Assembly (NCBI RefSeq): GCF_040729435.1
Contig: NZ_CP160398.1
Span: forward strand, 3,038,001-3,102,000
Source of the DNA: Pseudomonas sp. HOU2
GTDB taxonomy: Bacteria; Pseudomonadota; Gammaproteobacteria; Pseudomonadales; Pseudomonadaceae
Length of the DNA: 64,000 nucleotides
Direction of reading: 5' to 3'
The notes under the pieces are model-generated. The model saw nothing but the letters and a program-made list of their open reading frames with translations. It did no database searches and was not told the DNA's origin. This document shows positions 4,281 through 23,301 of this stretch, in pieces. Within the stretch, counting starts at the first letter, position 1. Each line of letters starts with the position of its first letter. The position numbers and the translations under genes are program-made.

Positions 4281-4317
4281 GATCCGGGCAGACTCCTTTC
4301 TTCTGCACACAAAAAAA

Positions 4318-4349
4318 GCAAAACCCCGCCAAAAAAGACGGGGTTTTCA
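4318..4349 (-). terminator. Intrinsic terminator between DUF1289 gene and rnk
   Basis: AAAACCCCG and CGGGGTTTT arms pair around a short T/A-rich loop, with T-runs on either side. On the minus strand it would end the cyaY-DUF1289 transcript before rnk, so rnk probably has its own promoter within or after it. Confidence 0.75.
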
Positions 4350-4436
4350 CCAGGCCTCGATGGGTTGAGGCGTGTTCGGACACTATCACAGCTCAAAAAA
4401 TATACAAGTCACCTTCCAGACCGGAGGAGACGCCTT

Positions 4437-22025: not shown

Positions 22026-22039
22026 AGTTTCCCTGTGGG

Positions 22040-22072
22040 AGATTCTATGTTGCTCAGCAACCCTAGAATCTC
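22040..22072 (-). repeat. Right-end hairpin of the IS110 element
   Basis: AGATTCTA (22040-22047) and TAGAATCT (22064-22071) are exact inverted repeats around an inner GTTGC/GCAAC stem. The hairpin spans the transposase stop codon and includes the core dinucleotide at the REP junction. Confidence 0.75.
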
Positions 22073-23006
22073 AAACTGATCGGTATTCGCCCTGATTCTT
22101 CATCAGGGCGAATGCCACTCGGCAGAGCTTGCGAGCAAGAGCTACCAATGCCTGTGTTTTCGAGAAGCCTCTGGCCAGGTAAGACTCGTAAAAAGGCTTC
22201 CACTTGGTTGAGCGACACGCCGCCATTGCGGCGTTGTAGGCTAATCGACGGATCTCCGGATCTCCTTTTTTGCTCAGGAACCTCGGGCCGTTCTTTTTCC
22301 CCGAATCGTCCACCGTCAGATCCATACCCAAAAACGCGATGAACGCGTCGCTGTTGGCAAAGTCACCGCGCATATAGGTCGTTGCCAACCCAGTCGCAGT
22401 CAGCTCTCCCACGCCCTCGATTGCTTTGCAGCGGCCAATATTGTCATCAATACCGGCCTCTTTGCTGACTTTGCGCAGCAGGTTTTGAATGACCTTGTCG
22501 GATCGCTCGAATGCCTTTTGCTGAGCCGTACGTTCTTTCTTCAGCAAGGGTTCATCGGCCCAGCTCAACATCAGACCCGTATGGTTCTGAATCAGCGTCG
22601 CGCGTCTGTGCAGCAAGCTTTTCAGTACGGTGTAGGCTTTAGGAGGCGGGTTCCAAAGCCGCAGTTTGCTTTGTTCATTCGTCAGATAGCGTGCGAGCAC
22701 GCGTGCATCGCATGGATCATTTTTGGCTCGCTGACCGACACCGCGACGATAGTGGCTGACTCGATAAGCATCCACCACATAGACCTGATGTCCCATCGCA
22801 TGAGCCAGATCAACAGTCTCCAAATGGTAGATATTGGTGGCTTCGACAGCGATAGCGCTTTGCGCGGGCAGAGTTTTGAGCCAACGTTTGAGGGCGGCAC
22901 GATCATTCTTGACCGCTTCAATGGTTTCCAGGTCGGCGCGATAGACAACGATTTCGGCCTTGGCGATATCGATACCAACAACCGTCTGCGAAGTAAGGAT
23001 TGTCAT
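22071..23006 (-). CDS. IS110-family transposase (DEDD recombinase)
   Basis: The recombinase has 311 residues. The N-terminal RuvC-like DEDD domain shows D13 in VVGIDIAKAEI, E55 in AVEATNIYH and D97/D100 in KNDPCDARVLARYL. The C-terminal Tnp domain (Transposase_20) has IEGVGELTATGLATTY (196-211) and AFIAFLGMDL, then SGKKNGPRFLSKKGDPEIRR, in which S245 is the likely nucleophilic serine by analogy with IS621. A GAGGA site 8 bases before the ATG supports the start. The gene reads in the same direction as the proE-like gene upstream and could be expressed by read-through as well as from its own left end. Confidence 0.95.
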   Translation of the reverse strand: MTILTSQTVVGIDIAKAEIVVYRADLETIEAVKNDRAALKRWLKTLPAQSAIAVEATNIYHLETVDLAHAMGHQVYVVDAYRVSHYRRGVGQRAKNDPCDARVLARYLTNEQSKLRLWNPPPKAYTVLKSLLHRRATLIQNHTGLMLSWADEPLLKKERTAQQKAFERSDKVIQNLLRKVSKEAGIDDNIGRCKAIEGVGELTATGLATTYMRGDFANSDAFIAFLGMDLTVDDSGKKNGPRFLSKKGDPEIRRLAYNAAMAACRSTKWKPFYESYLARGFSKTQALVALARKLCRVAFALMKNQGEYRSV

Positions 23007-23046
23007 GACGAATCCTCGGAGCTAGGGTTTAAGAGCTTGTTGGGGT

Positions 23047-23190
23047 CTACCGTTGCGCTGGCTTGTCTCTGTCGTCGGTTTACCGATGAATTCCTTATTG
23101 GCGCTTTGGGTAGAAGGGGCGGGACGAGAAGTCTCCCACGGTCTGTACTGGTCAGAGTCAGAATCGAGTCTGTAGTCCCGCCCACCCCTT
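23047..23190 (-). ncRNA. Predicted IS110 bridge RNA (target and donor loops)
   Basis: Transcribed 5' of the transposase, this stretch can form two long stem-loops. Loop 1 is closed by GGGCGGGAC (23183-23175) with GTCCCGCCC (23125-23117) and contains CAGACTCG (23172-23165), close to the left target CAAGCTCG, and GTGGGAG (23139-23133), the exact complement of core plus right target CTCCCAC. Loop 2 is closed by GGTAG/CTACC and GCGC/GCGC arms (23101-23113 with 23047-23058) and holds GGAAT (23094-23090), like the donor end AGAAT, and ACAAG (23066-23062), the exact complement of core plus right donor CTTGT. This is the layout of the IS621 bridge RNA. Exact transcript ends are not determined. Confidence 0.8.
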
Positions 23191-23301
23191 CAAGTCTAAA
23201 CATACAAGCGAGCTTGCTCGCGAAAGCGGTGTACCTGACACATGTATATTGAACGTGTGGCCGCCTTCGCGAGCAAGCTCGCTCCCACAGGGGTTATGTG
23301 T

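Follow-up and report, generated by a model that had tools for sequence, protein, structure and literature searches.

A REP-seeking IS110-type element of Pseudomonas and the evidence that a predicted bridge RNA, with a left guide that follows the occupied REP, probably selects its landing site

How an insertion element finds the same point of a repeated sequence again and again is the question raised by an IS110-type element lying in a REP of Pseudomonas sp. HOU2, within the 64,000-nucleotide stretch of contig NZ_CP160398.1 analyzed here (the window). An earlier note, made from the sequence by itself, had proposed that the noncoding left end of the element holds the target-binding loop of a bridge RNA whose guides match the occupied REP. 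This interpretation was supported, and we consider it highly probable, from sequence comparisons, that the element selects its landing site by bridge RNA base pairing in the manner of IS621. Feature coordinates are collected in the table.

The host genome (6.05 Mb, one contig) contains seven full copies of the element and one truncated left end, all with the same guide, and all eight insertions occur in REPs at the same point. The full copies have identical ends and an identical length of 1,165 bp, and in 7/7 the element is bordered on both sides by CT and then by the REP halves, as expected for insertion at an IS110 core dinucleotide; the window copy is arranged as CAAGCTCG / CT / element / CT / CCCAC. 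A second, related element is present in two copies, with matching left-end DNA 78% identical. Searching plasmids with the element returned relatives of less than 60% identity only, and the element is described here without an ISfinder name.

The transposase scored above the cut-off for both Pfam domains (PF01548 and PF02371) and at 167.3 bits (cut-off 140) against NCBIfam NF033542, "IS110 family RNA-guided transposase", and has the RuvC-like DEDD domain and the C-terminal Tnp domain with conserved serine that define the IS110 family (IS110 group). The catalytic residues D11, E60, D102, D105 and S241 reported for IS621 in the portion of PMC11208158 surveyed align to D13, E55, D97, D100 and S235, which are invariant in 16/16 aligned relatives. 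The ends are also those of the IS110 group, with 200 nt from the element start to the ATG and 29 nt from the stop codon to the right core; a right noncoding end of 29 nt and guides upstream of tnp place the element outside the IS1111 (seekRNA) group.

Table. Features of the element and of its predicted bridge RNA; positions are those of the window.
Feature	Position	Strand	Basis or remark
IS110-type insertion element, 1,165 bp	22042..23206	-	between two CT cores; flanks are REP halves
Core dinucleotide CT, left copy	23207..23208	-	
Core dinucleotide CT, right copy	22040..22041	-	
Left target CAAGCTCG, one half of the interrupted REP	23209..23216	-	
Core plus right target CTCCCAC, the other REP half	22035..22041	-	
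DEDD/Ser transposase (recombinase), 311 aa	22071..23006	-	PF01548 + PF02371; NF033542; 27% identity to IS621
Left-end region, likely encoding a bridge RNA (predicted extent)	23010..23206	-	sequence and alignment fold
Left target guide (LTG) CAGACTCG; effective part 23165-23171, 7 nt	23165..23172	-	covaries with target in relatives
Right target guide (RTG) GTGGGAG	23133..23139	-	exact complement of core plus right target
Predicted handshake guide, A then C, directly 3′ of RTG	23131..23132	-	placed like IS621 handshake guides 81-82 (PMC11208158, as surveyed)
Target-loop outer stem, 5′ arm GGGCGGGAC	23175..23183	-	also in alignment fold
Target-loop outer stem, 3′ arm GTCCCGCCC	23117..23125	-	also in alignment fold
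Inner stem-loop separating LTG from RTG, TCTGACT ... AGTACAGA	23142..23162	-	alignment helix 3; compensatory UA-CG 4/36, CG-UA 1/36
Predicted donor-binding loop, closed by GCGC/GCGC	23055..23104	-	helix 4, stem in 36/36 rows
Predicted left donor guide ATAAGGAAT (donor CATAGAAT)	23090..23098	-	role from position
Predicted right donor guide ACAAG (donor CTTGT)	23062..23066	-	role from position
Right end AACATAGAAT (left donor)	22042..22051	-	contains AACATA, inverted-repeat partner of TATGTT at 23199-23204

Both guide matches described in the earlier note were found as described: the RTG is an exact 7-base reverse complement of the core plus right target, and the LTG matches the left target at 6/8 bases plus one G-T wobble. 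The stem said to close the loop is present, with its 3′ arm lying beyond the interval 23133-23183 that had been assigned to the loop, and the guides are displayed, not in a simple hairpin, but in an internal loop with the inner stem TCTGACT/AGTACAGA (23162-23156/23149-23142) between them. This inner stem is paired in 99.2% of cells among 36 relatives, and two of its seven pairs are changed on both sides. A bridge RNA of the IS621 type is expected to display such an internal loop, in which the LTG can pair with one strand of the target and the RTG with the other, and the genuine IS621 sequence, to which the note had likened the guides, has its parts in the identical order.

The left guide had been read as eight bases. 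Positions -7 to -1 agree with the target in 126-157/165 insertions, whereas position -8 agrees in 29/165 only, and the 8-nt reading was dropped; since base -8 is untracked in relatives, the effective match is 5/7 plus one wobble for the window copy and 6/7 for the other copies. In all 16 insertions carrying the window guide, a guide A faces the REP G at -5 as a mismatch, and just one of the two guide bases that follow the LTG (AT) matches the CT core. A perfect home target for the guide was looked for and rejected, as CAGACTCGCTCCCAC occurs 0 times in the host genome and 0-3 times per genome across the 16 genomes searched. When the left end was shuffled 20,000 times with dinucleotides preserved (a wobble scored as half, and a hairpin not demanded), the exact 7-mer arose in 224 shuffles, and the 7-mer together with a left guide of at least 6.5/8 lying up to 50 nt 5′ of it in 17/20,000.

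The truncated left end (G000:C1:5724035-5724130) is cut exactly after the RTG GTGGGAG and continues directly into REP sequence (CGAGCTTGCTCGCG). As the DNA of the guide is that of the REP head, this junction could reflect 7-base microhomology or targeting of guide DNA by the recombinase. The possibility that guide DNA is repeatedly targeted was considered and rejected, since such a breakpoint was found in 1/398 genomes, the host itself, and 7-base microhomology explains it equally well.

The fold of the left end was derived from an alignment of 36 of 63 distinct left ends and comprises an outer helix, the target-binding stem, the inner stem between the guides and the donor-loop stem. Across 23 counted pairs, 99.4% of cells are paired versus 41-56% when partners are slid, a figure that is favored by derivation of the structure from the same alignment as was scored. 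Three pairs are changed on both sides (reached by 23/500 shuffles) and 21 cells show such changes (0/500 shuffles). The covariation score of 0.113 was reached by 0/500 shuffles, but a slide of +1 gives 0.116; further pair types are fewer than in all 500 shuffles, and 15/23 pairs never vary. The RNA thus shows modest internal covariation. In the RNAalifold output the RTG was additionally folded into a small hairpin, and the donor loop gained one further pair; 7/30 pairs were omitted from scoring, those of the RTG hairpin on the grounds that a guide has to be unpaired. Single-sequence folding gave a z of only -1.84, and the inner stem as such, seen in the alignment fold, was absent from it. No Rfam 15 family matches the left end at the gathering score, and at an E-value of 1 Rfam gave no bridge RNA family and four microRNA matches far under their thresholds. 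Elsewhere in the window, at 4312-4417, Rfam identified a Pseudomonas rnk leader RNA (73.7 bits).

A predicted donor-binding loop with partial matches to the RE-LE junction is also present. The donor ends and the loop are near-invariant across relatives, and the donor-loop stem is unvaried in 36/36 rows and therefore without covariation support. The element ends carry a subterminal inverted repeat, AACATA/TATGTT (22046-22051/23199-23204), which exceeds the three bases given for the IS110 repeat in the part of PMC11208160 surveyed: all 74 elements with AACATA have TATGTT, and the 87 elements with ACCATA have TATGGT (71) or TATGCT (16). At the right end, another inverted repeat (22049-22061) overlaps or just precedes CATAGAAT; its letters vary among relatives (GTTGC/GCAAC, TTGCAGGG/CCCTGCAA, GTTTGGGG/CCCCAAAC), and in some none is seen by eye.

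Guides and flanking targets were then compared in relatives, as the earlier note had proposed. In a survey of the genus, 52/398 genomes, the host included, had a transposase match at E ≤1e-50; insertions were taken from these 52 genomes, from 80 of 148 relatives in the genome collection and from 60 further copies. With at most five candidates scored per genome, this non-exhaustive set comprised 165 unique insertions, among which 28 left-guide strings were read, 21 of them distinct as 8-mers. Omitted from loci L001-L190 were 11 loci lacking the left-end motif (L014-L020, REP matches only; L072, L095, L099 and L102, transposase loci), 15 duplicate insertions and five with N, a short flank or no readable guide. 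Copies were counted as separate insertions, some of which may not be independent events, and CT on the left in 165/165 follows from construction of the search motif. Elements are about 1,163-1,192 bp nearly throughout, with one of 1,091 bp; in Pseudomonas sp. KNUC1026 six (L101, L115-L117, L119 and L121) are 1,369 bp by end motifs, with a left guide match of 8/8.

Left guides change with their targets while the left-end fold is kept. Guide AAAGCCAG goes with majority target CAAGCCAG, as it does in 2/2 copies of the related element in the host genome, and the majority targets of guides AAGGCTCG, AAAGCTCG, AAAGCCCG and AAAGCCGG are CAGGCTCG, CAAGCTCG, CAAGCCCG and CAAGCCGG, respectively; guide ACAATTCG goes with majority targets ending ATTCG, and guides AAGCCGCC and GAGCCTGG with majority targets AAGCCGCC and GAGCCTGG. 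For the 28 guide strings at best offset, mean pairing with majority targets is 6.43/8 (permuted 5.19, SD 0.13; reached by 0/20,000); for the 21 distinct 8-base guides it is 6.36 (permuted 4.58, SD 0.20; 0/20,000). The register of two guide families was chosen post hoc, and one fixed register, applied to 22 guides, gives an equal outcome (6.09 versus permuted 4.56; 0/20,000). When similarity over the remainder of the left end was controlled for, a partial Mantel test on the 63 distinct left ends gave r=0.55 (0/2,000). In 241 close pairs whose members have different guides and targets, and which are not independent of one another, own pairing exceeded swapped pairing in 225, tied in 13 and was worse in three. 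This guide-target covariation is what would be predicted for the LTG of an IS621-type bridge RNA.

The pattern is one of majorities. The majority target of its own guide is occupied in 128/165 insertions, whereas 37/165 lie elsewhere, so that unchanged loops at different targets, which the earlier note had named as evidence against its reading, do occur in a minority. The majority-target share is 15/16 for the window guide and 23/29, 11/14 and 7/8 for others, with low shares of 9/14 for one guide and 2/5 for two guides; for 9/28 guide strings the own majority target is not the best or tied best of 14.

The right half behaves differently from the left. Right target CTCCCAC is found in 152/161 insertions with a known right target, and together with RTG GTGGGAG in 146/161. 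Outside Pseudomonas the right target is CTCCTAC in all four insertions, with RTG GTAGGAG in three and GTGGGAG, forming a wobble, in the fourth; RTG GTGAGAG, with one mismatch, occurs in six insertions of one genome. The RTG is near-invariant, with three compensatory cases. The right guide is near-constant because the REP head CTCCCAC is near-constant, and the left guide is variable because the REP stem is variable.

REPs are palindromic, and a protein might recognize their DNA alone, by sequence or as a hairpin, the left-end structure then acting as a 5′-UTR that regulates how the transposase is expressed. Such a role was proposed for ISPpu9, in which tnp translation is influenced by the structure of the 5′-UTR and by two sRNAs (PMC8450116, as surveyed). 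We judge recognition by protein alone very unlikely for the window element, since the left guide tracks the left target even when the remainder of the left end is controlled for, elements that are 83-88% identical in DNA occupy different REP stems, each matching its own guide (for example L045/L128, L009/L086, L028/L030 and L045/L124), and the REP isoform occupied can be predicted from one base of the guide. Regulation and guidance are, moreover, not mutually exclusive.

That guide base is the one at -6, and its effect can be read within single genomes. Free REPs of the host genome comprise 142 of the CAAG isoform (CAAGCTCG, reading CAAGCTCGCTCCCAC) versus 37 of the CAGG isoform (CAGGCTCG, reading CAGGCTCGCTCCCAC); the sum of 179 agrees with a separate count. 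REPs occupied under the window guide CAGACTCG, which has G at -6, are seven CAGG and one CAAG, the latter being the window copy (CAGG/CAAG 7/1 occupied versus 37/142 free; odds ratio 26.9, Fisher p=1.8e-4). In genome G254, a near-identical element lies in CAGG in 2/2 cases, with 43 CAGG and 182 CAAG in the free pool. Across all 16 genomes with G-at--6 guides, 38/42 insertions are in CAGG (expected 29.3; 9/200,000 simulations), and across all seven genomes with A-at--6 guides, 2/16 are (expected 7.5; p=4e-4). Insertions at neither CAGG nor CAAG (3, 5 and 2) were outside this within-genome test. An earlier partial test (30/32 and 0/10) had omitted 11 G and six A insertions, two of each contrary; in the test that replaced it, REPs were counted in the remaining 10 genomes and all insertions were entered.

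The G-at--6 excess has p=0.025 without the host genome and p=0.17 without the host genome and G254; it leans on these two because CAGG makes up almost the whole REP pool in most of the other genomes, and several genomes, with free pools 96-100% CAGG, carry little information. In genome G290, with a pool of 297 CAGG and 1,126 CAAG, two G-at--6 copies are both in CAAG. For the TAAAGCTCGTC guide family, which is shifted by one base and would pair better with CAAG, 14/16 insertions are in CAGG (expected 11.5, p=0.11) in a register set after the data had been seen, and this family runs counter to simple pairing. A guide G at -6 likely favors CAGG REPs over the commoner CAAG REPs in the host genome, and the CAGG preference could come partly from REP context or from the make-up of the REP pool when the insertions took place. 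G290 also contains a natural one-base guide variant pair, L189 and L190, which are 99.3% identical, differ at guide -6 (A versus G) and both lie in CAAG.

These counts bear on whether guide-target similarity could be chance or shared ancestry. The loop and REPs are GC-rich, related elements in related genomes meet the same REPs and have guides and hosts in common, and the pools made up almost wholly of CAGG add little. Such an origin is contradicted by the shuffles, the permutations, the partial Mantel test and an in-genome preference against the commoner REP, and we regard it as extremely improbable.

The window copy is the sole CAAG case among the eight host insertions and sits in a REP pair, where recombination is easy; it might belong to a guided element and yet owe its CAAG position to homologous exchange or gene conversion among REPs rather than to guided insertion. 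We think this rather unlikely, since the G-T wobble at -6 suffices: IS621 mismatches its natural target at position 4, through a non-canonical rG:dT pair, and mostly uses the target with that wobble (129/173 sites), and off-targets with one or two mismatches are reported for it, all in the portion of PMC11208160 surveyed. On the guided reading, the window copy would have entered the CAAG site directly, permitted by the wobble.

By analogy with IS621, the left end would be transcribed into a bridge RNA and bound by the recombinase, the donor loop would pair with the donor, and a handshake step would lead to serine-mediated strand exchange at CT. Beyond this, we lean on balance toward the view that REP-seeking IS110 elements evolve mainly by change of the left guide, with the RTG and recombinase locked to the constant REP head and the left guide tracking the diverging stem base by base, one base deciding which REP isoform is colonized, and that the REP pool of a genome may serve as an in vivo read-out of bridge RNA specificity.

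The family provides many natural insertions into a repeat with one guided variable half and one near-constant half, and unhit sites in the same genome form the control, so that wobble and mismatch tolerance in nature become directly countable. It also directs attention to recombinases that share 27% identity with IS621 and go with right guides of seven bases; published specificity work, as far as surveyed, concerns mainly IS621 in E. coli. In the literature on bridge RNA, IS110, REP and REPIN, surveyed as titles and abstract openings and as passages of main texts, a within-genome REP-isoform preference was not found in titles or abstract openings. The element belongs to a published kind and the observation is largely explained by a known mechanism; what the analysis adds is a test, inside one genome, of a single base of the guide.

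Among known systems, as described in the passages of the cited papers surveyed, bridge RNAs were reported with covariation over 5,511 target-ncRNA pairs (PMC11208160), and structure and handshake guides in PMC11208158. E. coli IS621 shares with the window element the CT core, the REP target, a left end starting TGTAT, a DEDD + Ser recombinase and a target loop followed by a donor loop between left end and transposase, and its LTG and RTG likewise face each other in an internal loop (PMC11208160). It differs in its protein (27% identity), its REP family and guides, and its RTG of 4 bp (PMC11208160), where that of the window element matches seven bases. ISCro4, whose transposase structure is solved, was compared by transposase alone (E 6.4e-19). 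REP insertion in Pseudomonas has been described for ISPpu9, ISPpu10 and ISPa11 (PMC1525189). ISPpu9 and ISPpu10 of P. putida, of the IS110 family and compared here by published description, have 2-bp direct repeats and lie at one point of Pseudomonas REPs in 7/7 copies each (PMC1525189); ISPpu9 is reported to have sRNAs of ~180 nt and a 244-nt 5′-UTR, for which regulation, not guidance, was proposed (PMC8450116). ISPa11 of P. aeruginosa, in the IS1111 group, is seekRNA-guided and also targets Pseudomonas REPs, but its guide RNA lies downstream of tnp (PMC11187229), whereas the guides of the window element lie upstream, as in IS621.
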